Source: Lachnospiraceae bacterium (GTDB lineage: Bacteria; Bacillota; Clostridia; Lachnospirales; Lachnospiraceae). Taken from it: a stretch of 64,000 nucleotides of DNA. This document shows positions 171 through 64,000 of this stretch, one piece after another; the first letter of the stretch is position 1, and the number at the start of each line of letters is the position of its first letter. Under the pieces are notes generated by a model that worked only from the letters and a program-made list of their open reading frames with translations, was not told the DNA's origin and did no database searches. The translations under genes and the position numbers were made by a program. The stretch is from the NCBI GenBank assembly GCA_900199595.1, contig FZRB01000001.1:58819-122818 (forward strand). Reading direction: 5' to 3'.

Positions 171-278
171 GGTGCTTTTGTAGTGCTTGGTGCTTTTGTA
201 GTGCTTGGTGCTTTTGTAGTACTTGGTGCTTTTGTAGTGCCTGGTACTTTTGTAGTGCCTGGTGCTTTTACTGCACAT
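171..278. repeat. Six tandem 18-bp repeats overlapping the 3' end of the kinase-like gene
   Basis: Units start at 171, 189, 207, 225, 243 and 261, each close to GGTGCTTTTGTAGTGCTT. On the minus strand they are in frame with the kinase-like gene but lie after its TAA stop (268-270). There they would encode K-H/Y-Q-A/V-L-Q hexapeptides followed by a TGA at 151-153, next to the terminator. They look like a former C-terminal repeat tail cut off by a stop codon. Confidence 0.85.
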
Positions 279-2751
279 GCTGAACCTGTGGCACCTGTTG
301 CATCTGCTGTGCCTGTTGAGCCTGATTCTCTTTCTCAGCGTTGATCTTCGCCACTTCTTTTTCGTTCTTTACGTGCTGAGCTCTGAAAGCCTTTCCTATC
401 TTAATAAACTCTTTATTTGATATATGGTCCATCTCAGTGAGATGTGTTTTATACTCGGCTACGCGGTCTGCTTTTTCAGTGATTCCATGAAGTGCATCCA
501 TAGTTTTCTGAATACGATTCTTCATGTTTTTCGCCATGTGGAATCTTTTGTAAGCATTACTGCTTTTAGATTTCTTATTTATATCTGCCTCAACCTTCGT
601 ATCCAGATAATCATTACATCTGTCGAAGGCAGTCTGAAGCTTCTGCAGGTATTCAGTTATCTTTTCGGTATTTGCCCTGAAAACCTCCTTAGGATTATCC
701 TCATCCGGTAGTTTATGCTCGAGGAGCACCTCATTAAAACCTTCATAGGTAGTTTTGCAGTCTCTTAGTGCTGTGATCATTTGGCCGAACTGGCCATGCG
801 CGAAATGTGTGTTTCTCTGGGACAGCTCCATAGCTTCTATGGCTCTGCCCATATCGAAGTTATCCTTCGCAACCTGTCCTGCTTCTTCAAATGCATCTCT
901 CTTTAGAAGTGCTATATTCTCACCCAGAATTCTGGCATCAAGCGCTTCCTGTCCGATAAGATCGAAGAGATTCTTAGCCTTGCAGCCCTGAGATGTTTTT
1001 TCCTTATCCTTTTTTTCTCCCATCATCATATCCATGAAGAAAGAAGTGTTTCCAAGTTCGTCATCGGACATGATGCGGATGCGCCCATCCTCAATATAGC
1101 CGAAGGGCTTGTCCATGAAGTATTCTGCATCTCTTATGATTTTATCCTGGAGCTCATTTACTCTGTTCAGTGCATTATTTACCTCGGCAGTTGAGAGATC
1201 ATAACCGTAGAGCATGGTTTTAAGAGATTCCTTGTCCAGCTTCAGAATCTTATCGGCGGTTTCCTTCGGAATTACACTCATATTCTCAAGGAAGATTCCG
1301 TTCATTATAGCGGAGTGATTGTTTTTTCCGAAACAGGAGTCATTATCGATGCCCTGAATACCCACCAGATTACCATTCTCGTCAAATTTGTAAAACATGT
1401 TTGCTACATGTCTGTCCGGATTGCCGCATATCCAGTCCAGTACCTGGAGATTGGCTATATCCTTTTTGAGGCTGAGAATACTCTCCAGCTTGATCGGAGA
1501 CAGCTCGTTGAACTTTTTCATAACTGATGGATCAGTGTTGGAAATGTCAAAGCCCTCCGCATTTTCCATAAATGTACCGCTCACGATCTTGCCTGTGGAA
1601 GGGTCCTTTATCTGCATGTTTACAGACTTTGCTATGAGCTTGTCACAGCCTATCAGCCCTGCCACCATGGACATGGCTGAGTTTCTCTTATCAACCTTGG
1701 CCTCAGTTCTGATACCTACAGATTTTTTGACACTGCAGGTATTAATTGTTTTTGCTGTATCTTCAATAAGATCTATAAAGGACATGAAGATTTCCGGACT
1801 ATCTATACTGTTCATACTGCTGCTCAGCATTCGCATGTTAGCAGTGGTCAGAAGCTTTTTAGAGTGTTTCTCCCTCAGGATATCTCTGAAGGATTTCAAT
1901 ACATCCTCCCTGCCATCTTCAGAGTACGCTGCCATAGTATATTTGCCGGCTTTACTCAGACCACTCATGAAAAATGCTTTGTCATTCATCAGCTCGTTTA
2001 TCACGTCTCTTATTTCGTCACCGCATACATTGAACACAGAATTCTCGCCGTATTTTTTGATGTTTTTTTCTTTGATATCAGCGATCTGCTTATTAAATGT
2101 AGTGCCACGCTTTGATATGGAGAAGAATCCCTTTTTATCAGAAGCTTGGACAAAATATCTGGTATTCTGAGCGCCACCAAGTTTTTTGGTATTAGTCAGA
2201 TCATATACCAGCTGCTCAGATCTTGAATTCTCATAAAGCTGAGTAATAGATGGATGATCCTTATGCTTCCTGCAGAGATCTATAGTTTTCAGATCCTTGC
2301 TGAGAGTCTTACGGAGCTTCATCATATAATCATAATTTGCCTGATTATTCCTCCGGTAGGTCTTGTAGGTGTTGAGATCTGTCTCATATGTTGCCTTATT
2401 CTGAATTTCATTCTGAATTGCAGTCTTCTCATTCTCATCCTTGATATTATTAATCAGTTCAGGATTCTTGATATAAGGCTTAATTAAGTCGAGCTTCTTT
2501 TTAGTATCTTCAACTTTATCAAAGATCTCTTCCATAGACTTCATTCGTTTTGAGATTAAATTGATGGTCTCGCGATAAACTCCATCAAGATTCGTAAGCT
2601 CATTATCCGTAAGAGGTTCCTTCTTCTTTCTGGCAGGAATAGCCTGGTTCAGCCTATGGAATTGGCGCTGCAGCTCCTGGTCGCGCTTATACTTTTTCTC
2701 GGCACTCCTGTATGCAGTTTTTCTTTTTGCAATTCTTGAATTATCGCTCAT
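268..2751 (-). CDS. Giant array protein with PI3/4-kinase-like catalytic core
   Basis: 827 residues. The start at 2751 is chosen because AAAGGAGAT lies 7 bases upstream; the open frame extends further upstream without a better site. The N-terminus (about 1-200) is a basic coiled coil. The middle holds a kinase-like core: an N-lobe segment K-x-D-K-R-N-S-A-M-S-M-V-A, a G-T-F-M-E-N-A-x-G segment, then the catalytic loop D446-R-H-x-x-N451 and the metal site I-D469-N-D471. DRHxxN followed by IDN/DND is the pattern of PI3/PI4-kinase, actin-fragmin kinase and HipA-like folds, so protein or lipid phosphorylation is inferred; the substrate is unknown. The C-terminus has the YKR helical domain (Y-L-D-T-K ... 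K-S-S-N-A-Y-K-R-F) and a Q-rich tail. It is colinear with the protein at 15497-17890. It has its own 20-bp-spacer promoter and a 195-nt leader with a hairpin. The C-terminal repeat tail appears truncated by the TAA. Confidence 0.9.
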   Translation of the reverse strand: MSDNSRIAKRKTAYRSAEKKYKRDQELQRQFHRLNQAIPARKKKEPLTDNELTNLDGVYRETINLISKRMKSMEEIFDKVEDTKKKLDLIKPYIKNPELINNIKDENEKTAIQNEIQNKATYETDLNTYKTYRRNNQANYDYMMKLRKTLSKDLKTIDLCRKHKDHPSITQLYENSRSEQLVYDLTNTKKLGGAQNTRYFVQASDKKGFFSISKRGTTFNKQIADIKEKNIKKYGENSVFNVCGDEIRDVINELMNDKAFFMSGLSKAGKYTMAAYSEDGREDVLKSFRDILREKHSKKLLTTANMRMLSSSMNSIDSPEIFMSFIDLIEDTAKTINTCSVKKSVGIRTEAKVDKRNSAMSMVAGLIGCDKLIAKSVNMQIKDPSTGKIVSGTFMENAEGFDISNTDPSVMKKFNELSPIKLESILSLKKDIANLQVLDWICGNPDRHVANMFYKFDENGNLVGIQGIDNDSCFGKNNHSAIMNGIFLENMSVIPKETADKILKLDKESLKTMLYGYDLSTAEVNNALNRVNELQDKIIRDAEYFMDKPFGYIEDGRIRIMSDDELGNTSFFMDMMMGEKKDKEKTSQGCKAKNLFDLIGQEALDARILGENIALLKRDAFEEAGQVAKDNFDMGRAIEAMELSQRNTHFAHGQFGQMITALRDCKTTYEGFNEVLLEHKLPDEDNPKEVFRANTEKITEYLQKLQTAFDRCNDYLDTKVEADINKKSKSSNAYKRFHMAKNMKNRIQKTMDALHGITEKADRVAEYKTHLTEMDHISNKEFIKIGKAFRAQHVKNEKEVAKINAEKENQAQQAQQMQQVPQVQHVQ

Positions 2752-2779
2752 GAAATATCTCCTTTTGCCTTTTGACATC

Positions 2780-2801
2780 GTATGACATACGGATTGCTCC
2801 A
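2780..2801 (-). promoter_or_regulatory. Leader motif AATCCGTATGTCAT ahead of the kinase-like gene
   Basis: On the minus strand GGAGCAATCCGTATGTCAT sits about 30 nt upstream of the start codon. The same stretch occurs in the same orientation upstream of the genes starting at 9599 (-) and 52288 (+). It contains the near-palindrome GTATGTCATAC. Role unknown. Confidence 0.4.
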
Positions 2802-2884
2802 TTTTCTTCGAAAACTCTCGCAATCCTAGAAACATTCGGAAACCGCTAATTTTCTACGAAAATTGCTATTTCCTCATGTTTCAG

Positions 2885-2952: not shown

Positions 2953-2984
2953 ATTATAATCTAATAATAGCAACAAAAGCGCAA
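2953..2984 (-). promoter_or_regulatory. Array promoter, copy 1
   Basis: TTGCGCTTTTGTT with exactly 20 bp between TTGCGC (2979-2984) and TATAAT (2953-2958). Drives the kinase-like gene 268-2751. Confidence 0.75.
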
Positions 2985-2991
2985 CCGTTTG

Positions 2992-3023
2992 TTGCACTTT
3001 TGTTGTTAGGGATGTGAGACAAT
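2992..3023 (+). promoter_or_regulatory. Array promoter, copy 2
   Basis: TTGCACTTTTGTT, 20-bp spacer, GACAAT at 3018-3023. Drives 3131-6661, giving a leader of about 100 nt. Divergent from copy 1 with 7 bp between the two cores. Confidence 0.75.
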
Positions 3024-3130: not shown

Positions 3131-6100
3131 ATGGCAAATCCAGGCGACAAATTCAAAGAATTTATCAATAATAAGGATGCGAAGGGTGCAGTAGAGCTGA
3201 TGTACACCCTTTATACAGAAAGAGCAAATGCGATTGCAAGTGAAAAGAACGGACCTGAGCAGGAACAGCAGAAACAGGAGATTCTTTCTTTCATAGAAAA
3301 TATTACTAAGACCGGTGAGGGTTCAAAAGAAATAGCTGATGAGAACAAGGAATTCTTCATGGCTTTTATGAATGAGCTTCAGAGGAAATACTTTGAGACG
3401 GCGATTGATCTCGGCGAAAAAAGGCAGGAGTGGGTAAACAGACTGACTGCCGGACAGGTTCCGGGAGCGGAGCTTGTCAGGGACGAACCTGATACAGTTA
3501 AGAGTCTTGCCAGAACAATTGTTCTCGAGAAGGAACCGGATTCAAATGTTCTTCCGGATATGTTTAATATTTTTTCAGACGGAATTAGAAATAAAACTAT
3601 TGGCGGTAAGGATGCTCTGGAGTTCTTCGAAAATAATTCCGTTCAGGTTCGTGAGGCGCTTGCGAAGGAGAAGAATATCCAGGACGTAACCCTCGATACA
3701 TATGTTATGGATCTGAGAGACCGTGATCCTGACATCGAACTGGGCTTTAAGGTTAAACCTGGTGCATATAAGCCGGGAGAAGATATATTTGACGATATTC
3801 CTGATTATGTAAAAGAGATAATGGGCTGCACTTCTCCTGAAGATATGGATGAATATGAAACCGATCTTTATGAGAAAATCCATATCCAGGAAAGACATGA
3901 TATTCAGGCCAAATCAAGTGTCAAGGTTGCAAAGGAACTCTTAAAGCAGCTTGATGCTATGGAAGGAATAGAGAAAACTGAGAATTATATTTATACCCGT
4001 AGATTCTTAGAAGAATATACTCATCTGGGAACTGATTTTGTGTATAAGGATGATGCGATTATACAGGATGTGATTAAACCCATGGCAGGATATGATTATC
4101 CGTTGGTAGATCAGGCTTCAGGTAATGTTCAGTATGCTTCTGAAAAACTGAGTGATGAATTAATGGCGAAGCTTGGCCAGATAGAAGATAAGAACAGTCC
4201 TGAGTATAAGCAGATACAAAAGCAGGTAAAGCTGATAGATAATATCTACAACCTTTCCACTGTAATGAGGAATCAGAATGAAGAGTATAAAGAACAGCAT
4301 CTTGGCGCTAAGGAAATAAGAAAAATAAAAAAAGATATCTCTTATATCAATAAGGCAAGAAGAGACAGAAAATATCTGGTTACTGATGATTATTCAAATC
4401 GGATTAATCCGAATAATTTTGAAAAAACTTTGGATGAACAGATAGAGGTACTAAGCGACAGTCTCTGCAAAGATGGTGTGGAAAATAAGGTCTATGATAA
4501 TCTTATCAATAGTCTTATGGAACAGAAGAGACTTAGTTATAAGCACCGCGTTGCTTTGAATGCAGATAAGAGGGAAATGGCTGAAGTCTACTCGAAACAG
4601 CTGGAAAAAAATACAGAAAAAATCAAGAATCTCACAAAGAGCTGCAGGGAATTTGAAAAGACAAATACTAATAAGCCGGATATGACCGGTGATAATATTG
4701 ACAGAAATCAGCTTCTTGACAGAATTGAAACTAACCTTGACCATAAAATCAATCGTGAAAATCGAAACGATCTTTCATATCTATGGGGAGTACAAAAAAC
4801 ATTTCTGGATGAACTATGGTTTGCACATACCTATGGATTCAAAAATAATCTAAAAGTTAAAGGAAGCATATTTAATGAAAAAGACAGAGAAAGGTTAGGG
4901 TTTAACATAGATGGAGATGTAAGTGATGAGGAAATTGATCGTTCGAGTTTCTATAATCGTGAAATCTTAAGTCAATGCTTAAAAAACGATTCCATAGATG
5001 ATGTGAGAGAGATGGTTGAAAATGTTGCCCGGATGATGGTCAAGGCAGCGGTTAATACGGGTAAAATCTATGATGAAATATATAATTCCCTTGAGGGTCA
5101 GGAGAATCAGGAGCTGAAAGCAAGATACCTCTTTAATTATGGTGGTGGAAGAATGGAAATGGGTGCAACTGATGACATCAACCTCAATATGGCGGATTAC
5201 ATTAATAATTTTATTGACTCAGACCAGTTTAAAAATATACTTGATATTGATGATAAGAATATGACTATGAAGGGAATGCTCAAGAAGCTGGGGCTGACAG
5301 ATGATGAAATGAATATTTCTTTCAGTGATAGAAAAAAACCAATTAATCCGGATGATAAGGTATGGGAAGTATTAAAAAATGAAGGAAAAGTATTCGATAC
5401 AAGGGGGACAATAAAGGAGTATATTTACGAAACTCTAAAGAGTGTATGGTCCAAAAGAGGAAATAAGAAAGCAGAGGCAGATCTTTCAGATACTGATAAA
5501 AAATATTATAATCATTTTAAAGTCAATATCGATAATGCAGAAGCAGTAGCTAAAAAAAGTCCATACGGGCCTATTCAAAATTGGATAAATGAGACAGGAG
5601 AAAATCTTAAGGAAGACCTTCATAAGGTTATTACTGTTGAAAAGCTGAATATGACACATGCTGTTCTCGGAAAACGTAGGTTAATGGGAGTTCATCCGAC
5701 CTCCGAGGTGGGCAGATTCTATCATAATTATCTTAAACAGGAAAATACTTATATAAGAGGCATTCTGAAGGAAGGAAAGAGTGCGGATGAAGTAATAGAA
5801 AACATTGTTTCTGAGAAAAAATATGAGAAGCTGATAAATATAATACCTAAGAAATCGCTTGAAGGATTTGATGCTTACATCAGTCTCCATACGGCAGGAA
5901 GAGCCGGAGATACTGTTGAGAAACAGATAGATAATCTGGCTGAGGTAATGGCCTGCTATGGAATGAAAAAGCTGGGGAGAGAATATAATGTAAAAAAAAT
6001 CCGTATGGAAGCAGAGAAGATGAAGAAGACTTACTGTCTTGATACTCTTAAAAATGATCCGGATGCTCTCAGGGAAGCGCTTCGCGGAGAAAATACAGCA

Positions 6101-6661
6101 AGAGATATGGGGGCAATACTGAAGAAGAACCTCTATGGTGTAAAACCGGAGGATAGGGATAATTACTTCAGGGATATGAACGAACTCTTAAATCAGATGA
6201 TGGATCCTTCAAAACGAAGTAAAGCATATCAAAAACTTTACGAAGCAGTCAGAAATGCTGCTGAACTTCGTGATAAGGATATGAGCCCGGCAAAGAAGGC
6301 TGAGGCTATCCGAAATGCAAATATCGACATATATGATGCTGTAGAAAACTATACAAAGGGTAAGGAAAATGTTCGCCGAAGCGAAGATGGAAATATTCGA
6401 TTTGATAATGCCATTGATGCACTTGCAACAGTAACCAGGTATGTGCCCGGCTTCGCAGTCCGTGCAAACAGGCTCATTAATCATATAAATGATGTAAGAA
6501 GAAAATCAAATCCGAATACTGATAAGCTGATCGATAAAGCAAGACTTACCGAAAAGTACGGTATAGAAAATGCCAAAAAGAATAAAGAAAACTGGGAGCG
6601 AAAGCAGGCTCTTAAAAATACGGAAGCTGCTAAACAGCAGAATATACATAACGCATTATAA
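3131..6661 (+). CDS. Giant helical array protein (W-module plus YKR domain)
   Basis: 1176 residues, soluble, strongly charged and helical, with no signal peptide or membrane segment. Not recognised as a named family. AAGGAAAGGGAG precedes the ATG; the N-terminus M-A-N-P-G-D-K-F-K-E differs from the MKE start of most relatives. Around residues 710-780 it has the M-T-M-x-x-M-L-K-K-L-G-L ... S-V-W-S-K-R-G-N-K-K module, also seen in the proteins starting at 50127 and 61998. Around 1040-1100 it has the YKR domain in its sharpest form (Y-T-K-G-K ... R-R-S-E-D-G-N-I-R-F-D-N-A), nearly the same as in the proteins at 29517 and 50127. A basic tail ends the protein. Monocistronic: own array promoter, and a bidirectional terminator shared with the convergent gene 6777-9599. 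Confidence 0.9.
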   Translation: MANPGDKFKEFINNKDAKGAVELMYTLYTERANAIASEKNGPEQEQQKQEILSFIENITKTGEGSKEIADENKEFFMAFMNELQRKYFETAIDLGEKRQEWVNRLTAGQVPGAELVRDEPDTVKSLARTIVLEKEPDSNVLPDMFNIFSDGIRNKTIGGKDALEFFENNSVQVREALAKEKNIQDVTLDTYVMDLRDRDPDIELGFKVKPGAYKPGEDIFDDIPDYVKEIMGCTSPEDMDEYETDLYEKIHIQERHDIQAKSSVKVAKELLKQLDAMEGIEKTENYIYTRRFLEEYTHLGTDFVYKDDAIIQDVIKPMAGYDYPLVDQASGNVQYASEKLSDELMAKLGQIEDKNSPEYKQIQKQVKLIDNIYNLSTVMRNQNEEYKEQHLGAKEIRKIKKDISYINKARRDRKYLVTDDYSNRINPNNFEKTLDEQIEVLSDSLCKDGVENKVYDNLINSLMEQKRLSYKHRVALNADKREMAEVYSKQLEKNTEKIKNLTKSCREFEKTNTNKPDMTGDNIDRNQLLDRIETNLDHKINRENRNDLSYLWGVQKTFLDELWFAHTYGFKNNLKVKGSIFNEKDRERLGFNIDGDVSDEEIDRSSFYNREILSQCLKNDSIDDVREMVENVARMMVKAAVNTGKIYDEIYNSLEGQENQELKARYLFNYGGGRMEMGATDDINLNMADYINNFIDSDQFKNILDIDDKNMTMKGMLKKLGLTDDEMNISFSDRKKPINPDDKVWEVLKNEGKVFDTRGTIKEYIYETLKSVWSKRGNKKAEADLSDTDKKYYNHFKVNIDNAEAVAKKSPYGPIQNWINETGENLKEDLHKVITVEKLNMTHAVLGKRRLMGVHPTSEVGRFYHNYLKQENTYIRGILKEGKSADEVIENIVSEKKYEKLINIIPKKSLEGFDAYISLHTAGRAGDTVEKQIDNLAEVMACYGMKKLGREYNVKKIRMEAEKMKKTYCLDTLKNDPDALREALRGENTARDMGAILKKNLYGVKPEDRDNYFRDMNELLNQMMDPSKRSKAYQKLYEAVRNAAELRDKDMSPAKKAEAIRNANIDIYDAVENYTKGKENVRRSEDGNIRFDNAIDALATVTRYVPGFAVRANRLINHINDVRRKSNPNTDKLIDKARLTEKYGIENAKKNKENWERKQALKNTEAAKQQNIHNAL

Positions 6662-6776: not shown

Positions 6777-9599
6777 TTAATTCAATTTGGGCTGTGTATG
6801 ATTAATCTGTGTTTCCTTTTGCTGTCCATTTTGCGGAGCATTATTCTGAAGTGAAGCCTTTTTATTTGCTTCGGCATCTTCCTTCAGGAAGTGTTCCTCC
6901 ATTGCTTTTCCAAAGGCATTAAGACTTGAGATTATTTCCTTCTCAGATTTGTCAGCGGGTATGCCATCACTCATTTTGGAGATGATACCTTCTATTTTTT
7001 CAGTTCCATTCTGAGTGCGAAGTCTTAAATGTAATTCTTCAAGTGGTCTATAACACTCGGCTTTCAGCATATCAGTTTTAACGAGTATGTCGAAACGTGT
7101 ATAGTCAAGAGGCTGTCCCATTGCTTCCATGATTACTACATTCTGAAGTTTTGCAGAAGATTCATCATTGAAATCACGATATGCTTTGTGTTCTCTCTGT
7201 TGCTTTAATCTTTGATTGTCATGTTGATGTGCTATATAATCAAATCTTACTATATTATTTATGCATTCCTTCTTTGTTGCCAGATCAAGTGGTCTGTTTC
7301 TCTCAGCTGCATTCTTCAGCATCCTTTCGGAATCGACGCATTTATCATAGATACTCTTAAGCTTTAATGTATCATTTACGAAGTCCATATCTTCCTTGCT
7401 GAGCTTGGCAGTAACTGCTTCATATATTTCTTTATCCTTCTTTGCGAAATCAACAAGCTTTGCAAGAATTTCTGACTGTACATGCCAGCCTTTATCACGA
7501 CCGACCATATAGTCGGCATGCATGCATTCTCCGGCTGCCTCGCTTATTCCCTTTGCCATTATATTGATCAGCTCGGTTTTATCGCCCAGCTTATAATTTT
7601 CGAGAGCATCTTTTGCCCTTTCTCTGGCAGGTCTGATGACATGCTCTCCATAATGATCAATACTGTTAGATCTATGAGCATTCTGTAAATCTACGGTGTA
7701 CATAGTTCTGCATTGTCTTGCCTTATCTTCAGGAGTAATGTCAGGATCCTTTGTTGGGTACATTCCGTTTATGAAATCCGCATCTACTTTTGATCCGTCC
7801 AGAACTGAAGCATATGCAACAAGAGAGAAGTCCTCCTCAGAAACACCATTACACTCCAGTGGCTTGCATGCTTTATCAAATGAATCAAAGGTTACGAACA
7901 TTTTGAGATCTCTATGTTCACCTATAAGTGCAGGAGTTTTTGAGTAATAGTTGAGAATTTCTTTCACACCATTGTCATAAGGTCTGACAGCTTCATACTT
8001 CAGGTCATCCATTCTGACAAGTTTGTAGCCCTTATCAGTGTATTCCTTCCATTTTGTACGATATTCATTCTGGTTTTTAAAATGAGTTTTAGTCTCCTTG
8101 CAGAATTTTACAAGTTCATTTGCAGCATCATATCGGGCCTGTCCCATTTTTGTTCCGGGTTTAAACTTCTTAAGCTCATTTTGGAATTCTCTTTCCTGTT
8201 TCTTTCCTTCCTTGGAATTCGGATCGATATCGGGATTTATTAATTTCCTTCTTAGTTCACGCTCATACTTAGCTCTCTTCTTATTTATGTATTTATTTGT
8301 TTCCTGACCCAGTTCTGCAAATGCATTCGCAAATCTTTCGTCTTCGTAGATATTCTTATCACGATTATTTTTAAGCAGATTGATTACTTCCTTGGTCTTA
8401 TTCTTAAGGGTTCTCATTTCATCAGTATCCTTGTGGGCACCGAATCGATGACCTGTATTAAGACCCTTCAGATATTTCTCGAGGCTTTCTATAAGATCAT
8501 GACGCTTCCTGTCATCAGCCTTAAGTGGAACGAAAAATGTCTCTTTTTTCTTTACGTCCTCATAGGTGGTCTTTCTCTTTCCAACTTTCTCAAATGGAAG
8601 ATCATAAAAAGGTTTTACAGATTCTATAAGCTTCTGTCTATCCTTCGGTGAAGTCACATATGCATTGGTAAACTTCTGATGAATTATCTTTAGCTTATTT
8701 CTTTCCTTTTTTGGTACATTATCGCCCAACAGAGCATTAGTCATCATGATTTCCACATCATGGATCATCTGGAAATCATCAGGTGACCAGCCATGCTCCA
8801 GAGCCTTCATCTCCAGCTCAATCTGGTTCTTACGTACGCCTCCGAATCTGTCCCTTTTCCAATCATCGAAGCCCTTGTCAGAAGTAGCAAATGGGTAGAT
8901 CTGCATGGTTTCTTCATTTTGAGGGATATTATTGATTTTTTCTATGATTTCTTTCTGTCTCTTCAGGTGCTCATAGGTTTCAAGTTTGTACTGCTTTTCC
9001 TGTTCTGTGGTAAGAGTGCCGTTCTCCTTTGCCTTGAGATACGGAAGCATATATTTGTTTTCATACTCAAGTCTGTCCTCATAGCTTTCCAGAAGAGGAT
9101 ACTTTGACATATATTCCTCATATTTGGCAGTATCTGTTACATATTTACCATCCACCATAAATTTAGGAAGAGGAAAGTTGTTGAAGAATCCGGTTATAAA
9201 CCATTTGGCTATATCAGATTCCTTATGGAGAATATCCATATCACCATTTACATATTTTTTGATATGTCCCTGAAGAAGCTTCTTTCCACGCTTTATATAG
9301 GATGTCTCAGGTGAATTATCATTCCTGATATCCTCATCCAGAATATCCAGAAGAACCTTAGTCTTCTCAAAAACTTTCTGTTTTGTTGCTTCATCTATAG
9401 GTTCATCCAGATTTTGTATCTTTGAATTAAAAGCTTCCTGAACTATATCAAGAGCCTTGTTTTGAATATCTTCAGCCTTTTCACCGAAGAGATCATTCAT
9501 GGCCATTATATTTTCCTGAAGCAGCGTTACTGAATTCTTGGTAATGATTCCTTTCATTTCAAATGTATCATTATTATTTATTACTTCCTGTTCCTTCAT
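6777..9599 (-). CDS. Giant helical array protein (NGW, YKR and AYA modules)
   Basis: 940 residues. The start at 9599 gives M-K-E-Q-E-V, preceded by GGAGG 7 bases away; the open frame runs 10 codons further without a site. Not recognised as a named family; no signal peptide or membrane helix. Visible modules: G-T-L-T-T-E-Q-E-K-Q-Y-K near residue 195 and H-G-W-S-P-D-D-F near 268, both shared with the proteins at 13151 and 42882; the YKR domain from about 390 to 490 (Y-I-N-K-K-R ... G-T-K-M-G-Q-A-R-Y-D-A-A); and from about 590 an E-E-D-F-S-L-V-A-Y-A-S-V-L module followed by conserved R-Q-x-R-T-M-Y and E-C-M-H. The C-terminal half aligns by eye with that of the protein at 46548-49985, whose N-terminal half is of a different type. 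Own array promoter and hairpin leader. Confidence 0.9.
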   Translation of the reverse strand: MKEQEVINNNDTFEMKGIITKNSVTLLQENIMAMNDLFGEKAEDIQNKALDIVQEAFNSKIQNLDEPIDEATKQKVFEKTKVLLDILDEDIRNDNSPETSYIKRGKKLLQGHIKKYVNGDMDILHKESDIAKWFITGFFNNFPLPKFMVDGKYVTDTAKYEEYMSKYPLLESYEDRLEYENKYMLPYLKAKENGTLTTEQEKQYKLETYEHLKRQKEIIEKINNIPQNEETMQIYPFATSDKGFDDWKRDRFGGVRKNQIELEMKALEHGWSPDDFQMIHDVEIMMTNALLGDNVPKKERNKLKIIHQKFTNAYVTSPKDRQKLIESVKPFYDLPFEKVGKRKTTYEDVKKKETFFVPLKADDRKRHDLIESLEKYLKGLNTGHRFGAHKDTDEMRTLKNKTKEVINLLKNNRDKNIYEDERFANAFAELGQETNKYINKKRAKYERELRRKLINPDIDPNSKEGKKQEREFQNELKKFKPGTKMGQARYDAANELVKFCKETKTHFKNQNEYRTKWKEYTDKGYKLVRMDDLKYEAVRPYDNGVKEILNYYSKTPALIGEHRDLKMFVTFDSFDKACKPLECNGVSEEDFSLVAYASVLDGSKVDADFINGMYPTKDPDITPEDKARQCRTMYTVDLQNAHRSNSIDHYGEHVIRPARERAKDALENYKLGDKTELINIMAKGISEAAGECMHADYMVGRDKGWHVQSEILAKLVDFAKKDKEIYEAVTAKLSKEDMDFVNDTLKLKSIYDKCVDSERMLKNAAERNRPLDLATKKECINNIVRFDYIAHQHDNQRLKQQREHKAYRDFNDESSAKLQNVVIMEAMGQPLDYTRFDILVKTDMLKAECYRPLEELHLRLRTQNGTEKIEGIISKMSDGIPADKSEKEIISSLNAFGKAMEEHFLKEDAEANKKASLQNNAPQNGQQKETQINHTQPKLN

Positions 9600-9620
9600 G
9601 GGTTTATCCTCCGAAATTAT

Positions 9621-9641
9621 ATATGACATACGGATTGCTCC
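9621..9641 (-). promoter_or_regulatory. Leader motif AATCCGTATGTCAT, second copy
   Basis: Read on the minus strand, GGAGCAATCCGTATGTCATAT lies about 22 nt upstream of the start codon at 9599. It is the same stretch as at 2780-2801 and, shorter, at 52237-52252. Confidence 0.4.
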
Positions 9642-9710: not shown

Positions 9711-9742
9711 ATAATATTACAAATAGTGCAACAAAAGCGCAA
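9711..9742 (-). promoter_or_regulatory. Array promoter, copy 3
   Basis: TTGCGCTTTTGTT, 20-bp spacer, TATTAT at 9711-9716 on the minus strand. Drives 6777-9599. Confidence 0.75.
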
Positions 9743-9769
9743 CTGATTCTAAAAAAAGTACCTGTTATG

Positions 9770-9801
9770 TTGCACCTTTGTTGCGTTTTTGAGTGTATTA
9801 T
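9770..9801 (+). promoter_or_regulatory. Array promoter, copy 4
   Basis: TTGCACCTTTGTT, 20-bp spacer, TATTAT at 9796-9801. Drives 9848-13015 with a leader of about 40 nt. Confidence 0.75.
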
Positions 9802-9847
9802 AGAAATGTATCAATACATAGTTCAGATTGAATTAAGGAGAATTATT

Positions 9848-13017: not shown

Positions 13018-13064
13018 AAAAGAGCAATACTTGTTTAGATTTATAAATAAGTGTTGCTCTTTTG
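13018..13064 (+). terminator. Terminator overlapping the next promoter
   Basis: AAAAGAGCAA pairs with TTGCTCTTTT around an inner partly paired segment. The 3' arm TTGCTCTTTTG is itself the conserved hexamer region of array promoter copy 5, so one sequence serves both ends. It does not carry the GAACC centre of the common terminator family. Confidence 0.65.
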
Positions 13065-13085
13065 TTATACTTTAGGTGCTAAACT
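13054..13085 (+). promoter_or_regulatory. Array promoter, copy 5
   Basis: TTGCTCTTTTGTTATAC, 20-bp spacer from TTGCTC, TAAACT as a weak -10 at 13080-13085. Drives the operon starting at 13151. Confidence 0.7.
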
Positions 13086-13150
13086 GAGTTACAGATTAAA
13101 AAAATATGATCCTTCCTGAGTTGGAAGGACTAAAAAGAGAGGATAATAAA

Positions 13151-15382: not shown

Positions 15383-15496
15383 GTTATTATAATGGGAGAG
15401 AGTATTTGATATATGAGGTCGGTTTCCGATGGGGTCATCGGGGGCTGGCCTCGCTTGGTAAAATTATTAACCAATGATATAGAAGAGGGAATTAAT

Positions 15497-22617: not shown

Positions 22618-22629
22618 AGCGATATGATG

Positions 22630-29379: not shown

Positions 29380-29396
29380 GTTATCTGAAAAATGTG

Positions 29397-39045: not shown

Positions 39046-39055
39046 GAGCTGAATG

Positions 39056-50041: not shown

Positions 50042-50062
50042 TAAAACTCTGTTAAACCTTTG

Positions 50063-50094
50063 TTGCGCATTTGTTACCCGTCAGGGTGTAGGAT
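50063..50094 (+). promoter_or_regulatory. Array promoter, copy 10
   Basis: TTGCGCATTTGTTA, 20-bp spacer from TTGCGC, TAGGAT at 50089-50094 (weak -10). Drives 50127-56235 with a short leader of about 26 nt. Confidence 0.7.
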
Positions 50095-55200: not shown

Positions 55201-56235
55201 ATGCTGGAGGAGCAGACAAAGAAAATAGATTTTAAAAACGTTGATATCTATAATGATAAGCAGTTTATAATGACTACTCATATGTATATGGCCCGTTTCG
55301 ATGCAGAACAGGAAATGATGCGTATCAAACCGGATTATATCAAGGTTGCAAAAGAAAGTAATCCGAATTTCAACAGCATGAATGATGCAAACGTTATCTG
55401 GTCACCTATGATGGAACTAGGCCAGTCTATGCGAGATATTAAACAAAATGCATATGATGCTGAAACATCAACTAATCCGACTATTGCCAGGAATGCAGCT
55501 GCTAAATTAATGTCTAATACTGAACGTATCAGACATCATCTTGAGGAAATGGACAAAAAGAAACAGGCAGCACAGAATATTCCGGTTAATAACTGGTTCA
55601 GTGAGGCTGAGCATGGTCAGATTTCTGCTACCAGTGCAGCATTGGAATTTGCTATAGTAAATAAGGTACCATTCAAAGAATATCCAGAAGATATAAAGCC
55701 GCTTCTTCCAAAGATGATAGATGGCAGTATGATGAAGAATGTGAAATATGAACTGGATATTACAAAAGGAAGAACCAAGATAACCTCCGGTTTCCCTTCC
55801 CAGGAAGATATTCATAACGAAGCGGTCAATATTAAATTTCTTAAGAAAACTGATGAGGCGATACGTCGTCTTGAAGGCGGTAAGGAAAACTATAACAACA
55901 AGAAGGATTTTGTAACAGACTGTGCCTATGCATTATTCGGACAGATGTACAGAGCATCCGGTATGCATACACCAATAGATGCCACAACAGGAAAGAAGCT
56001 TTCCCTTGAAGAATTCATGCGGAAGCAGATAAAGTCAGGAGTCTTCGAGAAATCACTTAAGTCAAAGAAGAATCCTAAAGAATTTACTGACCCTAAAAAT
56101 ATCGCCAAAATGGCGAAGAACAAAGCTAAAATGCAGGGTATAATAAAAGCCCATATAGATAAGAATGCTGAACGAAAGGCTGTAAAGCTGAAAGGCAAGG
56201 CAAACGTCCAGCGGTCAAACCCATCCTTACAATAA
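52288..56235 (+). CDS. Giant array protein with Asn/Gln-rich N-terminus
   Basis: 1315 residues, M-K-D-D-Q-N start, AATAGGGGAATACACT upstream. The first 320 residues are very rich in N, Q, E and R (N-N-E-N-Q-L-N-N-Q-N repeats, then an R/Q/E coiled coil with a 47-residue tandem duplication). Prion-like or heptad-like assembly is possible. The middle is helical; the YKR domain is at about 759-838 (S-Y-G-D-M-K-T-A-L ... H-Y-L-M-N-K-K). The C-terminus from about 1212 has C-A-Y-A-L-F-G-Q-M-Y-R-A-S-G, the same module as the middle of the protein at 25763. No signal peptide or membrane helix. Not recognised as a named family. Last gene of its unit. Confidence 0.9.
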   Translation: MKDDQNQEIEQLINDNQQANDAEMAALNNEMQRNREANALNNHNINNFFNNMANNNAVADDDEELNDLQDQVNNENQLNNQNQVNNENQLNNQNDPVEQAVDEEINQMNQDLDREDADLLNQAIQNQQNQNLQAQPVGNEQNANDDDWVNVEKDEIEQNQRENEFQRQRDLNEQRHHQQEQERQNRENQINNLNNSAQRMRNAEAGINAAADNMENNRNADRQRQQEQERQNRENQINNLNASAERMRALDQGMNDDANRIDNNQREAARRQRQQELQRRQEEIRRAREQNRQQVREMLRQQELERQRQADARRLKEANDEFKRTVYKAGRDSMVSKANKGYESVMKYFAPDNGFQYPPGITPELAAATVMGAAIDKNWLLDNYPDKIQEAGSLENLQKKILNDITSGGQLEPYILEIGLKSFQRATVAVDAFGSGKQGYVKDYLRNLADYSANTVGDIRAADGNLSDGLDPEQMTYKFCQEVVINGPLQVKPNEVDYTQINNIKLNSLSMQIDAMKAAEQRKQRLIKEVSTLTPAQKEELAAEMLLDNYIANMANKEKKKLEAATKKNREDAFRNVGLNEQDPKWNRYTASQNTFYDNKAKEASYIINKNTVSEFDVLMQTPGARDILKRQYMAKIKESDVYRRIVNSDNAKTMVDSLIEADVEATKGMDAIPDFKIDPAVKRYTKELNDSHRPKLEEQLSQVNRELVHKAMNKARTTDAIGNGSLVTYDVNHDSISANAEAINSMYQTIKRNDTITGSKSYGDMKTALKELRDYTRGLADHNTPMGSSEVEKYKELVNKVDNLADHYLMNKKNLDDPSSLDKVNGVRTLKRRLLTSTHKIDTALEFSKRDHSNQLFGDKFRRFDHFDPAKEDNNPFYGNKYKNPESRKINSGACSGFTTMRSAGTSIAIMCMAASGQYTFEDIMDPTKFVNEKKAIYDDVIMTLRDGDNPASREKIARTIHDGRIATDRMLEEQTKKIDFKNVDIYNDKQFIMTTHMYMARFDAEQEMMRIKPDYIKVAKESNPNFNSMNDANVIWSPMMELGQSMRDIKQNAYDAETSTNPTIARNAAAKLMSNTERIRHHLEEMDKKKQAAQNIPVNNWFSEAEHGQISATSAALEFAIVNKVPFKEYPEDIKPLLPKMIDGSMMKNVKYELDITKGRTKITSGFPSQEDIHNEAVNIKFLKKTDEAIRRLEGGKENYNNKKDFVTDCAYALFGQMYRASGMHTPIDATTGKKLSLEEFMRKQIKSGVFEKSLKSKKNPKEFTDPKNIAKMAKNKAKMQGIIKAHIDKNAERKAVKLKGKANVQRSNPSLQ
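52819..53010 (+). repeat. 141-bp in-gene tandem duplication
   Basis: A stretch of about 50 bp starting at 52819 recurs with one difference at 52960, exactly 47 codons on. The rest of the unit is diverged. It codes for the R/Q-rich coiled coil. Confidence 0.8.
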
Positions 56236-56287: not shown

Positions 56288-56306
56288 AATTTTATATGCA
56301 GCTTTG

Positions 56307-56338
56307 TTGCGCATTTGTTATCCGTTATGAATTAAAAT
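56307..56338 (+). promoter_or_regulatory. Array promoter, copy 11
   Basis: TTGCGCATTTGTTA, 20-bp spacer from TTGCGC, TAAAAT at 56333-56338. Drives 56374-60246. Confidence 0.75.
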
Positions 56339-56373
56339 GGACACAGTTGAAAAAATATACAAGGAGAACGAAA

Positions 56374-59088
56374 ATGAAAGAACAGGATCAGTTACAGGGA
56401 CAGGAAAATATACAGGAATTAGAACAGTTACTTGGATTAGATCAGATAGATGAAAGTCAGTTTCCGGGGCTCAAGGACGCTATACTCGCAAGCTACCTTG
56501 AGACTCAGAAGGTAATGGGTAAGAGAGATAAGACCAGAAGTGTTTATGACAGACCGAAGTTTCATGAGGAACTAAAGCAGCTCGATTTCATTTTTTCGGA
56601 GATAAAAAATACTAATGATACTATATATTTTGATGATGCTTATGCTACGTATGTACTTGACAGAAGCATTGATTTTGTAGGCTATGGAGCAAGAGTAAAT
56701 TTTATCCTCGGTAAAGTAGGCGAGAAGATGAGTCCTGAGGAATACTCCGATATGATTATGAATATCAAGAAGAATCCTGAGGCACAGGAGGTTCTTGTTC
56801 TTGCTACGAGATATGCTGACAGTAAACTTCTGAAAGAGAACCTTAACAAGTTCAAAGCTGTTTTCTGCCCAAAAGAAAGCTTTAATCTTTCTCCTGAGCT
56901 GGCGGAGGAGCAGTATGAGAATAGTCATGAGAGTCTTTTAGAAACTATTTCCGAAAGAATGAATAAGGTTAAGGGCGAGGATGATGGAGAAGTATTCCCT
57001 GAAGTAAATCAGACTCATTATCTGCTTCACGATATGGATTGGAATAAACAATTTCCTAGTTTAGAAGAATTCAACAAGGCTTTTAAAGAGGTGAGATTTA
57101 AAGACAGAATCAAGGTGGGGATTGGTAATAAGGACGAGCTTAAACATGAGTATGATCGTGAGGTCTGGGAAAATGAAAAAGGTAACAAGGAGAGTAAGCT
57201 TCATATTCTCCTTGGACTCGCCGGAAATCATTTGAATGACGAAGAATACGCAAGCTTTATACTGTCTGTCAGCTTCAATAAAAAGCTTAAACAAGAGATG
57301 GACAATTGTATCAATTACATGAACTTTGACCAGCTTTTCAGATCAAAGGAGGCTCTTCAGGTTTATTTTGCAAGCGGAGTTAAGAACACAGGCGATGTAA
57401 ATGCAGCCTATGAAGTAATAAAGGCAGGTTACGCTGAAAAGAAAAATGAAGCGGACGCCTTAAAGCAGGCTGAAGAAGAACATAGAAAAATTGAAGAAGA
57501 AAAGAAAAATATCGAGAAAGAAAAGTTCTACAAAATGCTCGATGAAAATCCATTTGAGGATGAATATATCGAAGAGTATAACGAAGAAGAAATAGAGAAT
57601 TCGAATAACGAGCAGAAGATAGAACAGTCAGGCGATAACCTTCAGAATAATCAGGCAAATAACCAGGCTGATAACGTACAGCCTGTTAACCCTGCTGTGC
57701 AGAATATGTCCAATAAAGATGTGCAGAATATGAAGAAGTTCCTCACGGGCTGGCAGAACTATAATCATGGAATCGGATCCATGTATAATCAGCTGAATGA
57801 GTTTATGAATGCGCTGACCCGGACTCAGGATGATCCATTAAAGAATTTTAATCCGGAAATGGGAGAAGAGGGCTCAGATTCTTACAAGAATATGACTAGA
57901 TCACTTCATAGTCTGATGCAGAAACTTGCGGATAAAAATTCTCGTCCGGAAGACATTTTCCAGGATTTTAATCAGTTATATAGAGCGTCAGAATCTTATT
58001 ATAAGGATCACTATAAATTCTTCGGAATAAAAGGAACAGACAGAGGCAGAGACAGACTTGCACTTTCTAAGGATCTTAAGAAAATTATTCCGGTTATGAT
58101 GAATGATTTTAATGGCTTATGTACAGGAGTCTGCAACCTTAAGGATGAAAACGGAGTGGTTTTCGGGCAGAAAAAGCCAAGTGAGATAGAGGCTAAATTT
58201 GAAGAAGTTAAGGGCATGTTTGGGGATGCGATTGAAAATGATCCATGCATGAACTATCAGCCATATCTGAATCAGATGAATGCTTCCAGATATCAGCTGA
58301 AGCTTTTGACAAAAGTAAAAGGTGTTTCGAATACATTTAGAAATAATTACACATATATAAAGGATATCGGTGCATATCAGAACATCAAGCCGAATATGAC
58401 AGATAATGACAAGGCTAAATATTATACTCTGAAGAAGTATATGGATCAGGCTTTTAAGCCGGGAGTTGAGTTAGAAACCGTAAGAAATGTAATAGAGAAA
58501 ATAGACAACGGGTTACTTAAAGAAGAATATAAAACTCTGGCAAAAAATCCTGTCTTCAAGGAATGCATGAGAAGCCATCCGCATGACGGACTGAAGGAGT
58601 GGAAGAAAGTCGAAGAAGCTACTGATGATATGATAGCTGATAACTCCCGTAGACTTCAGAAATTCTCTAAAGATCTTGGACAGTATATTACAGATAATGG
58701 TGATTTCCTGGCAGACATTAATGCCGATGAAATTTCAGACAACGATCTTGAAAGGGTAAATGCTATCCATAACGATATCATCAATGTAGTATATAGCAAG
58801 ATAATCAGAAATGAGTCTAATCGTGCTTTGGCAAATGAAATGGTTACAAATCCTGATAAGGTTGAAAGACTCAGGGATACTATAAACGAAACAGTTATAG
58901 ACAAATATGGATTAACCTTTAATAAGGACGGCAAGGGTGTGGATTCAAACAAGTTATTCAGTGTGATCACAAACTCTGATCTTGTGAAGAAATCAATTTC
59001 AAATTACAAAAATAAAGAGGCTGCAGCAAGACGTAACGTACAGAATGCCCCGCAGCAGAACCCGCAGCATAACAACCCACATTTATAA
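56374..59088 (+). CDS. Giant helical array protein (YKR and LAxNPxF modules)
   Basis: 904 residues from the ATG at 56374 (M-K-E-Q-D-Q), with ACAAGGAGAACGAAA upstream; an in-frame ATG at 56296 lies before the promoter and is rejected. Residues about 365-440 are an acidic coiled coil followed by an N/Q-rich linker. The YKR domain is at about 502-568 (S-Y-K-N-M-T-R-S-L ... S-Y-Y-K-D-H ... G-R-D-R-L-A). L-A-K-N-P-V-F-K ... L-K-E-W near 723 matches 9848-13015. The tail is N/P/Q/H-rich. Soluble and not recognised as a named family. It is followed after 27 bp by a lipoprotein gene, the only exported protein directly co-transcribed behind a giant gene in this window. Confidence 0.9.
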   Translation: MKEQDQLQGQENIQELEQLLGLDQIDESQFPGLKDAILASYLETQKVMGKRDKTRSVYDRPKFHEELKQLDFIFSEIKNTNDTIYFDDAYATYVLDRSIDFVGYGARVNFILGKVGEKMSPEEYSDMIMNIKKNPEAQEVLVLATRYADSKLLKENLNKFKAVFCPKESFNLSPELAEEQYENSHESLLETISERMNKVKGEDDGEVFPEVNQTHYLLHDMDWNKQFPSLEEFNKAFKEVRFKDRIKVGIGNKDELKHEYDREVWENEKGNKESKLHILLGLAGNHLNDEEYASFILSVSFNKKLKQEMDNCINYMNFDQLFRSKEALQVYFASGVKNTGDVNAAYEVIKAGYAEKKNEADALKQAEEEHRKIEEEKKNIEKEKFYKMLDENPFEDEYIEEYNEEEIENSNNEQKIEQSGDNLQNNQANNQADNVQPVNPAVQNMSNKDVQNMKKFLTGWQNYNHGIGSMYNQLNEFMNALTRTQDDPLKNFNPEMGEEGSDSYKNMTRSLHSLMQKLADKNSRPEDIFQDFNQLYRASESYYKDHYKFFGIKGTDRGRDRLALSKDLKKIIPVMMNDFNGLCTGVCNLKDENGVVFGQKKPSEIEAKFEEVKGMFGDAIENDPCMNYQPYLNQMNASRYQLKLLTKVKGVSNTFRNNYTYIKDIGAYQNIKPNMTDNDKAKYYTLKKYMDQAFKPGVELETVRNVIEKIDNGLLKEEYKTLAKNPVFKECMRSHPHDGLKEWKKVEEATDDMIADNSRRLQKFSKDLGQYITDNGDFLADINADEISDNDLERVNAIHNDIINVVYSKIIRNESNRALANEMVTNPDKVERLRDTINETVIDKYGLTFNKDGKGVDSNKLFSVITNSDLVKKSISNYKNKEAAARRNVQNAPQQNPQHNNPHL

Positions 59089-61893: not shown

Positions 61894-61911
61894 GGTATCC
61901 CAGAGCTTATG

Positions 61912-61943
61912 TTGCGCATTTGTTATACTTTCTTTTTTATAAT
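61912..61943 (+). promoter_or_regulatory. Array promoter, copy 12
   Basis: TTGCGCATTTGTTATAC, 20-bp spacer from TTGCGC, perfect TATAAT at 61938-61943. GTATCCCAGAGCT lies just upstream, as at copy 9. Drives 61998 onward. Confidence 0.8.
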
Positions 61944-61997: not shown

Positions 61998-63761
61998 ATG
62001 AAGGAAGTAGAAGAAGCTTTAGATGTAAGAGGTATATATGAGGGTTTGGAAACTATCGATGATAAGATAGAATTTCTGATTGATTATGATGCATATCTTC
62101 GTACACAGGATGATGTGGATGTGAATACTCAGCTTGAAAAGCAGCAGCTGGAGAGCGATTTTATTTATCAATATATTGTCAAGGGAACACATGAGGATCA
62201 TGTACATGTATTCGAGACTTTGGGAAAACATACTATGAAAAATGTAAAGGATTCCCTGGATGAGAAACAGAAATATATGAATTATCTTACGGATAAAGAG
62301 AGGGAAGATCCAAAGCTTGCTTCGAAGAAGGCAATGTACTGTACACAGTTTGACAGAAGTGGTAATTATGGTTTTGCTATACAGAATCTTACTATTGGTG
62401 TTATAGACTCCTTCCGAAATGAGAAAAAGCCACTTGGCACTACACGTGATTTTTATGGTGTTACCAGGAATACTCCAATCAAGGACTTTCTTGAGATTGC
62501 ACCAACACCGAAACCGATAGAGATGATAATGGTAGAACGTGGCATTTCATCTGATCAGACGGTAAATGACTTTTTCCTTGCTGAAAATAAAAATCCTAAG
62601 ACAGTTATGTATAATGCCATGAATTTTATTACAGAGGGATTAACAAAGATATGGACTAATCAGGGAAGAGAAAAGTATTTCGCTGAGAATAATATATCTC
62701 CGGAACAGCAGAAAACATTAACTGAAATTGCTTTAAAAAATAAAGGGGATTCCTCTGTTTCGGGTATTGAGGACTGGATTGCTTCCAAAGAGAAGATACC
62801 GTTTGGCGGGGATAACAGAGTAGCAAATGCTGATATAAGAAAAGAATTTGAGCTTAAGTATATTAAGAAGGATCCTATGGCCTTAGCAGGATTTAACAGA
62901 TCCCGTGAGCTTTCTGCAAAAGAACACATGGTGACAGGAATTCTGGATGAAATAAAGAATGCTGACAAGAATGTTTATAACGGAAGTAATGAATATGATG
63001 AGGCATGGAAAAGCATTGAAAATGTTCGTAATATTACAGGTGGAGTAGCCGGTTTTCTTAAAAATGAAACAGCGGATAAAGCAACTCTTAATCGTACGAG
63101 AGTTATGCAGCAGAATGCTGCTGAGGCAGAGGAAAAGATAAATAAATACCTGGCACGCAAGGCTAAAAAGAAAAAGCTTGATGATAAGGCAAAGAAGCGT
63201 GTAGCGGTCATGAAGAAGGCTCTTAAAGCTGTTAAAGAGATGGCTGAAGAAGCAGACAAAACTGTTAGTCTTTTTGCTGTAAAGAACATGGATGAATACG
63301 GTAAGCATTTAGAGGAACAGCTCGCAAAAGAAGAAAACCAGCCACAGGATATAACAGCTATTAAGTCTGCCATAAAAGGAACTGCAAAGTTAAAAAATGT
63401 ACTGGCTAAGAAGGGCGAATTATCTGAGCAGGATATTAAGGATGTAAGATATGGAGTTGCAGCTCTTACCATTTATAATAGAGGTCTTTACAGTAAGGGT
63501 GGTGAACTGACTGAGAAGCAGTTTGATGAACAGGTTGAAAAACTTGCAAAAGATGAAGCATTCGTCAAATCTACAGAGTCTATGTTAGATAAGAAACAGC
63601 TTTCAGAATTCTGTCTTGATCTGTCAAAGGGTGCTGTAAATGTAATGGAGAATTTTTATGAGGCAAAATCAGCAGTCTTTAATACTACTCAAAAACCTCA
63701 AACAAGAGAAGTAAAGAAGCAGGCTGTACAGGAGAATAAAAAGGGTATGGCAAAGTCATAG
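61998..63761 (+). CDS. Helical array protein, shortest complete member
   Basis: 587 residues, M-K-E-V-E-E start, GATAGGAGTGATCTTACT upstream. The N-terminus (D-K-I-E-F-L-I-D-Y-D-A-Y near 21, S-K-K-A-M-Y near 110) matches 25763 and 35171. The W-module (T-P-I-K-D-F-L near 157; K-I-W-T-N-Q-G-R-E-K near 217) matches 3131 and 50127. The YKR domain is at about 329-408 (S-N-E-Y-D-E-A-W-K-S-I ... K-Y-L-A-R-K-A-K-K-K-K). It therefore shows the basic layout of the family: N-terminal block, W-module, YKR domain, short C-terminal block. Soluble, no named family recognised. Followed after 21 bp by another family member. Confidence 0.9.
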   Translation: MKEVEEALDVRGIYEGLETIDDKIEFLIDYDAYLRTQDDVDVNTQLEKQQLESDFIYQYIVKGTHEDHVHVFETLGKHTMKNVKDSLDEKQKYMNYLTDKEREDPKLASKKAMYCTQFDRSGNYGFAIQNLTIGVIDSFRNEKKPLGTTRDFYGVTRNTPIKDFLEIAPTPKPIEMIMVERGISSDQTVNDFFLAENKNPKTVMYNAMNFITEGLTKIWTNQGREKYFAENNISPEQQKTLTEIALKNKGDSSVSGIEDWIASKEKIPFGGDNRVANADIRKEFELKYIKKDPMALAGFNRSRELSAKEHMVTGILDEIKNADKNVYNGSNEYDEAWKSIENVRNITGGVAGFLKNETADKATLNRTRVMQQNAAEAEEKINKYLARKAKKKKLDDKAKKRVAVMKKALKAVKEMAEEADKTVSLFAVKNMDEYGKHLEEQLAKEENQPQDITAIKSAIKGTAKLKNVLAKKGELSEQDIKDVRYGVAALTIYNRGLYSKGGELTEKQFDEQVEKLAKDEAFVKSTESMLDKKQLSEFCLDLSKGAVNVMENFYEAKSAVFNTTQKPQTREVKKQAVQENKKGMAKS

Positions 63762-63782
63762 ATTTTAAGAGGATATGAAATC

Positions 63783-64000
63783 ATGAAAGAAGTTGAGAAG
63801 GATTTATTAACCATTGAGGATAGAATTGAACGAACAAATTTAACGAACAGAGTGCAGAGTTCTATTTCTGATAAGTTATGGTTCAATATCGCATATCATG
63901 CAAGGGGAAATGCTATTACAGATGCTAAAAATGATAAAATAAATATCAGACAGTTCGGATATACTCAGACTGAATATAGTGAGGCTGAGGAGAATAAGAA
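63783..64000 (+). CDS. Start of another array protein, cut by the window edge
   Basis: At least 72 residues, M-K-E-V-E-K-D-L start, TTAAGAGGATATGAAATC upstream, open to the end of the window. The first residues closely resemble M-K-E-V-E-E-A-L of the gene before it. It shows that the array continues to the right. The rest cannot be judged. Confidence 0.85.
   Translation, partial: MKEVEKDLLTIEDRIERTNLTNRVQSSISDKLWFNIAYHARGNAITDAKNDKINIRQFGYTQTEYSEAEENK

Follow-up and report, generated by a model that had tools for sequence, protein, structure and literature searches.

Giant proteins with one shared helical domain, candidate effectors of a type IV secretion system in a Lachnospiraceae bacterium

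Xanthomonas uses a type IV secretion system (T4SS) to deliver toxins into other bacteria, and the effectors of this X-T4SS carry a conserved domain, XVIPCD, which is thought to be read by VirD4, and have immunity partners. The Dot/Icm system of Legionella is a Gram-negative type IVB machine, and to our knowledge no single domain is common to all of its effectors. In a 2025 review, the use of Gram-positive T4SSs as dedicated effector translocators is presented as a long-standing question, with one case and one exported protease (PMC12857230). The same review describes the T4SS of the Streptococcus suis 89K island as exporting a protease, and that of Saccharibacteria as having six VirB2-like pilins and being essential for epibiotic life (PMC12857230). 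Here we analyse a stretch of 64,000 nucleotides from a Lachnospiraceae bacterium (the window; positions 58819-122818 of contig 43 of genome G000, 3.49 Mb in 47 contigs), which holds 18 intact giant open reading frames (ORFs) of 587-1315 amino acids (aa), plus four other genes. These giants are probably the effector substrates of a dedicated protein-exporting T4SS, and the gut bacterium that carries them belongs to the group of Eubacterium ruminantium.

An earlier note on this DNA, made from the letters alone, had proposed that one unrecognised helical domain unites all the giants, and had marked 20 segments of it, all of which (20/20) sit in frame within giant ORFs. The proposal holds for every giant: a profile of 161 domains containing no G000 sequence, although not fully independent because its domains came from iterating the window profile, found 18/18 giants at 17.0-63.5 bits, whereas the top of 1,122 decoys reached 9.9 bits and the four non-giant genes 3.2 bits at most. 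With this profile 19 of the 20 segments were recovered and the first one of g10, barely above the top decoy, was marginal; the first of the two copies in g04 had been absent from the note (Table 1). The profile built from the window performed less cleanly. Leave-one-out recovery, expected for every segment, was obtained for 17/20, which scored above every decoy (of 462 proteins that had been shuffled or reversed, 412-423 received a score in each run). It failed for g05 (beaten by 21 decoys) and for the first segment of g10 (26982-27240, by 280), and the second segment of g10 (27890-28146) was beaten by a single decoy. When every segment alike at BLAST E<0.01 was removed (leave-cluster-out), 11/20 segments topped all 462 decoys and 7 were beaten by 3-9, the worst being g03 (by 102) and the first segment of g10 (by 285); the window-only profile is therefore weak between subfamilies.

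The pattern conserved across the domain rows is S..[YF]....AL, Y...K and G..R...A, with the Y and the R present in at least 90% of 61 rows. The fold of the shared domain is predicted to be three helices from one member, g11, whose domain was folded alone by AlphaFold2 with 19 window rows as alignment. The model has a predicted local distance difference test (pLDDT) of 85.2, a predicted template modelling score (pTM) of 0.73 and helices at 11-24, 33-52, 55-60 and 62-84 (three long, one short). The family also stays unrecognised, given that no Pfam model passed its cut-off in any of the 18 window giants, and no NCBIfam model did in the 9 of the 18 covered by that search. Among 41 relatives, Pfam gave 11 families at E<=0.001, all of enzyme or sensor types and each in two members at most.

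The giants are preceded by a common promoter element, TTGTTGCGCTTTTGTTGCG, followed about 10 bp on by a TATAAT-like hexamer. This box is a tandem TTGTTRC with an 11-bp period plus a -10 element, and 12 copies occur in the window. Such tandem repeats spaced at 11 bp are typical of OmpR/SARP-type activators. A match of at least 14/19 letters lies upstream of 112/181 domain genes with a readable upstream region vs 9/582 other ORFs (four of the nine are giants of 953-1233 aa in which no domain was recognised). This enrichment is partly circular, the consensus having been derived from the domain genes themselves. Genome scans, which are less so, gave 41 sites at one mismatch or fewer in G000 vs 1 for the reversed pattern, and 568 exact sites vs 2 in 61 genomes of the genus; box count and domain count are correlated across genomes (Spearman 0.90). 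The first gene past the 41 boxes of G000 is a domain giant in 29 cases, a further giant in 2, a gene of a T4SS locus in 4 (the pilin, VirD4 at a 1-mismatch site, and two secreted proteins) and another gene in 6; that is, 35/41 boxes lead into giants or genes of one T4SS locus.

Other boxes of G000 were looked at by eye. Two of them (G000:C2:94392 and C2:104369; L223) flank a region that holds a PAP2-like gene, a gene resembling C39-type ABC transporters and small peptides that resemble double-glycine leaders, which hints at a locus for peptide export within the regulon. Boxes at G000:C15:24850 and G000:C3:36460 (L225, L224) stand before a 116-aa leader-peptide-like gene and a STAS-like protein.

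The T4SS locus, reached through the boxes that do not precede giants, lies on contig 9 of G000 (C9, ~48-81 kb). It encodes a pilin (PF18895, 2e-12), a VirD4/TraG-type coupling ATPase (PF02534, 6e-52), a VirB4-type ATPase (PF19044, 1.1e-16 for the longer of two pieces) with a start that is PrgI-like by eye, and a VirB6-like protein with a long low-complexity tail (TrbL_4, E=0.0019, below cut-off). The VirB4 of a related locus matches the solved VirB4-like ATPase 4ag5 at 7.5e-49. Other products are a membrane protein with a sub-threshold Ig-like match, STAS and HATPase proteins (Pfam), a secreted protein of 2241 aa that contains a PLAT domain, and additional giants, of which L222 bears the domain. 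Upstream of the operon there are two His_kinase genes, three Response_reg regulators, two of them with the OmpR-type DNA-binding domain Trans_reg_C just below cut-off, a YkuD protein and a cell wall hydrolase. Most of the 18 loci compared have genes for VirD4, a membrane protein, a VirB6-like protein and VirB4 in this order; the order around VirD4 differs in five (G443, G428, G134, G135, G274). T4SS and domain genes share one stretch in G213, G304, G135 and G274, and in G304 and G213 a domain giant lies 4 kb or less from T4SS genes. In the genus, 8/8 loci inspected have the box upstream of the T4SS operon; for 7 of these the pattern was relaxed slightly. Judged by sequence, the giants and the T4SS are tied by common regulation or genomic association.

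Co-occurrence across species points the same way. Within the genus, the VirD4 orthologue has 68-94% identity and a main piece of at least 733 bits, vs 24-30% and 103 bits at most for other TraG-like proteins; a fragment of 58% identity that lies at the edge of a G011 contig was excluded from the count. The orthologue is present in 28/61 genus genomes, all 28 domain-positive, and in 0/21 domain-free ones (p=4e-8), and the VirD4/domain table for 31 high-quality genus genomes is 17/3/0/11 (p=4e-6). Outside the genus, VirD4 was found in 13/22 domain-positive genomes (63-84% identity) vs 0/28 domain-free ones (p=1e-6).

The domain itself is not confined to the array. In G000, the window profile gave 46 matches at E<=0.1. 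Contig 43 carries 32, which run on past the window, and nine other contigs hold the remaining 14, including one in a broken frame. At E<=0.01, 40/61 genomes of the genus are domain-positive, and a wider profile detected the domain in 17/250 genomes of the family (two of these from the same genus), 9/146 of the order (G000 among them) and 1/299 of the phylum, which is G000 itself. The domain marks a family with patchy occurrence. After iteration the set comprised 187 proteins, at least one of them probably false. One orthologue group has named members, namely Lachnospiraceae bacterium C6A11, a goat omasum metagenome-assembled genome labelled "Eubacterium sp." and Eubacterium ruminantium FB3002. 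The largest domain proteins seen adjoin each other in G180:C10 (L159), with 3,733 aa and more than 2,000 aa.

The heads of the giants appear to be of several types. A relative in the same genome (L042:1905-4088) has an ADP-ribosylglycohydrolase head that matches PF03747 above cut-off (2.8e-37, 129 bits), and a second relative has one at 2.9e-36. The g01 head matches PF06702 (8e-5) and PF00454 (8e-4), and that of g06 PF00454 (1.2e-5), all below cut-off; against FAM20A/C in PDB, g06 gave 0.002-0.006. Kinase-like heads also occur in two relatives at 5e-6 and 5e-5, below cut-off, and one of 41 relatives reached 2e-9. These matches suggest a putative atypical-kinase-like head (PI3/4-kinase or Fam20C) in g01, g06 and their relatives. 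In g11, which had no Pfam match at E<=1, and in its relatives, a C-W ... H-Y motif looks by eye like that of a papain-like cysteine protease, and a protease-like activity of such heads is putative.

The tails are basic. The mean charge of the last 30 residues is +4.0 in 180 domain proteins vs -0.3 in 245 other long proteins, and a net charge of at least +2 is found in 154/180 vs 71/245. A membrane-like segment occurs in 1/186 domain proteins vs 93/263 others. As separate observations, short C-terminal motifs of [LIMV]G and up to three residues end 36/180 domain proteins vs 12/245 others, and the heads of g03, g05, g12, g14, g15 and g16 show by eye, before the domain, a recurring G-W-[PSA] with hydrophobic residues after it, which may mark a second helical module that they have in common.

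We propose that the OmpR-like regulators and sensor kinases beside the T4SS operon bind the tandem 11-bp box and would turn on the operon and about 30 giant genes together. Each giant would be a soluble protein composed of a variable head (kinase-like, ADP-ribosylglycohydrolase, protease-like, or of unknown helical type), the three-helix domain common to all and, in most cases, a basic C-terminal tail. What VirD4 reads for docking may, by analogy, be the shared domain and/or the basic tail, and the VirD4 system would export the giants into other cells. There is little room for immunity genes between the giants of the window, and we therefore favour a target other than sister cells (rumen ciliates, other eukaryotes) over rival bacteria. 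One study reports that Lachnospiraceae are enriched in the rumen-ciliate-associated community, and the genus of G000 is not named there (PMC6217230). The fuller proposal, in which a dedicated effector-translocating Gram-positive T4SS recognises dozens of giants per genome via the three-helix domain and manipulates rumen eukaryotes such as ciliates, has in our judgement an even chance of being right.

Several observations weigh against an effector role. Pfam recognised no VirB8-type protein in the C9 locus, in which a 369-aa membrane protein has no family assigned. Twelve of the 40 domain-positive genus genomes have no VirD4 orthologue; those that pass the quality cut are G016 (2 matches, best 2e-4), G026 and G031 (one at 0.007). 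G026 is nearly complete and has one domain match at 9e-8 and 7 boxes, and G013, 97% complete, has three domain matches (best 4e-12); the rest of the 12 are less complete. Outside the genus, 9/22 domain-positive genomes lack VirD4, at least 2 of these probably being false domain matches. The p-values given above also overstate independence, because species of one genus share descent. As to the box, its pattern was not found at the T4SS loci of 10/10 genomes from more distant genera, and no strong box stands directly upstream of 69/181 domain genes, a count that includes any operon-internal genes. Moreover, 6/41 boxes precede genes without an evident link (one has a domain giant next), and the complete genome G004 (G004:C1) has four exact boxes and neither the domain nor VirD4. 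Among other secretion routes, type VII secretion (T7SS) is the one that was compared.

The giants might instead be cytosolic, for example scaffolds or stress proteins, belonging to the same regulon as the T4SS yet not its cargo. Boxes also stand before genes with no obvious part in secretion, among them one for a STAS protein and two named by eye, for a membrane protein of PAP2-like type and a leader-peptide-like product, and the near absence of membrane-like segments would suit such proteins. We consider this unlikely: the co-occurrence with the T4SS persists in genera whose loci gave no match to the box pattern, and family expansion, exchangeable heads and basic tails would fit secreted effectors better. 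That the T4SS serves an integrative element for conjugation, with the giants as cargo or accessory proteins of that element, seems quite improbable, even though the VirD4 and VirB4 families are common to conjugation machines and PF03432 relaxase genes are found in 11/16 T4SS-positive genomes searched (the genome-wide search covered PF03432, not other relaxase families). G005, G015, G029, G040 and G180 have the T4SS without a PF03432 match, and the nearest such gene lies ~380 kb away in G006 and on another contig in the other 10, drafts in which distance is not proven. Pfam detected no relaxase at E<=0.01 in the 27 of 29 C9-locus proteins scanned, and among 72,556 plasmids none has this VirD4 at an identity of at least 60%, with long matches reaching ~28% at best.

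A variant of the effector explanation, with which its odds overlap, would make the giants interbacterial toxins delivered by the T4SS, and we regard it as rather unlikely. It would agree with a pilin-bearing T4SS and with large multidomain substrates. However, 12/15 neighbouring giant pairs in the window are separated by less than 200 bases, with no space for an immunity gene between them. In the widest gap (34262-35170, 909 bases), the frames listed are low-complexity or overlapping ones, none longer than 142 aa, besides a 176-aa frame antisense to g13. The heads recognised so far are of kinase-like and ADP-ribosylglycohydrolase type rather than nuclease or lysozyme folds. Substrates of a T7SS would also be compatible with a helical domain and a Gram-positive host; EssC is above cut-off in 14/61 genus genomes, 12 of them domain-positive, and the EssC/domain table for the 31 high-quality genomes is 7/13/0/11 (p=0.03). 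For all 61 genomes, however, it is 12/28/2/19 (p=0.11), and no EssC is above cut-off in G000 and 46 other genus genomes, including G002, G005, G015 and G057, which have the most domain matches besides G000, G036 apart. This origin of the giants is very improbable indeed.

The positions of the giants and boxes are given in Table 1. The start of g01 is probably codon 29, judged by its ribosome-binding site. Within the array, g07 (17924-21958, +) encodes a secreted propeller-type sensor whose C-terminal part is HD-GYP-like by eye. The 909-base gap contains a frame with an MKEN start, as in many giants, and a K/N-rich end; it could represent a remnant or a family member of very small size. Elsewhere in G000, a gene for a MobA/MobL-like relaxase by eye (L047:15237-16886, G000:C21) lies in the same stretch as two domain giants, on a contig other than that of the T4SS locus.

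Table 1. Giant genes and promoter boxes (found by box scan) of the window, in window positions; bit scores are from the profile of 161 domains from other genomes.
Feature	Position	Strand	Details
g01 giant	268..2835	-	855 aa ORF; domain ~514-792, 31.5 bits
promoter box of g01	2953..2985	-	C43:61771-61803
promoter box of g02	2991..3023	+	1 mismatch
g02 giant	3131..6661	+	1176 aa; domain ~6215-6433, 61.2 bits
g03 giant	6777..9629	-	950 aa; domain ~8103-8426, 25.8 bits
promoter box of g03	9711..9743	-	
promoter box of g04	9769..9801	+	1 mismatch; real start of g04 downstream of box
g04 giant	9767..13015	+	domains ~11291-11512 (40.8 bits) and ~11735-11947 (42.0 bits)
promoter box of g05	13053..13085	+	g05-g06 unit probable, 30-base gap
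g05 giant	13106..15382	+	758 aa; domain ~14585-14848, 27.3 bits
g06 giant	15413..17890	+	825 aa; domain ~17402-17668, 34.4 bits
promoter box of g09	22629..22661	+	g09-g10 unit probable
g09 giant	22728..25685	+	985 aa; domain ~24159-24371, 56.1 bits
g10 giant	25763..29335	+	1190 aa; domain ~27896-28144 (22.3 bits); marginal copy 26981-27211 (10.0 bits)
promoter box of g11	29396..29428	+	1 mismatch; g11-g12 unit probable
g11 giant	29427..31985	+	domain ~31572-31781, 63.5 bits
g12 giant	32036..34261	+	741 aa; domain ~33470-33706, 34.7 bits
promoter box of g13	35063..35095	+	
g13 giant	35171..38866	+	1231 aa; domain ~37262-37465, 37.3 bits
promoter box of g14	39055..39087	+	g14-g15 unit probable
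g14 giant	39153..42866	+	1237 aa; domain ~40644-40901, 44.3 bits
g15 giant	42882..46358	+	1158 aa; domain ~45564-45800, 42.9 bits
g16 giant	46548..49985	+	1145 aa; domains ~47979-48209 (47.1 bits) and ~48372-48698 (38.6 bits)
promoter box of g17	50062..50094	+	g17-g18 unit probable
g17 giant	50127..52235	+	702 aa; domain ~51804-52013, 60.5 bits
g18 giant	52288..56235	+	1315 aa; domain ~54562-54741, 34.5 bits
promoter box of g19	56306..56338	+	real start of g19 downstream of box
g19 giant	56296..59088	+	domain ~57871-58086, 44.4 bits
promoter box of g22	61911..61943	+	
g22 giant	61998..63761	+	587 aa; domain ~62982-63230, 17.0 bits (weakest main domain)

Our results suggest that the domain family and the giants form a hitherto unrecognised group of proteins that the bacterium delivers into other cells. 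No comparable system was found in the literature by titles and abstract openings, with bioRxiv and most subscription papers outside the coverage. As in the S. suis 89K island, a Gram-positive T4SS would here be used for protein export; according to the review cited above, 89K has one named substrate (PMC12857230), whereas here there are dozens of co-regulated, domain-sharing candidates in gut bacteria, a pilin gene is present and no relaxase was found in the scanned proteins of the locus. The T4SS of Saccharibacteria is likewise a monoderm T4SS with pilin genes and differs by phylum (PMC12857230). The present system offers a candidate dedicated translocator, combining the machine with regulators, a promoter box and dozens of possible substrates, and it occurs in relatives that are named strains (E. 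ruminantium FB3002, Lachnospiraceae bacterium C6A11), so that the question of dedicated translocation is directly testable. If the giants are indeed effectors, common rumen bacteria would have a molecular route to act on other cells.

The comparison extends to Gram-negative machines. Like the X-T4SS of Xanthomonas, the system described here has one conserved domain in its candidate substrates, a likeness of description, whereas the effectors of Xanthomonas have immunity partners and the giants leave little room for such genes. Like the Dot/Icm effectors of Legionella, the giants are a large, scattered and species-variable accessory set of soluble proteins, although the machine is of another class and one domain is shared here, whereas no all-effector domain is known there. 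If the proposed export is real, this T4SS and its giants would be a Gram-positive counterpart of the Legionella effector system.

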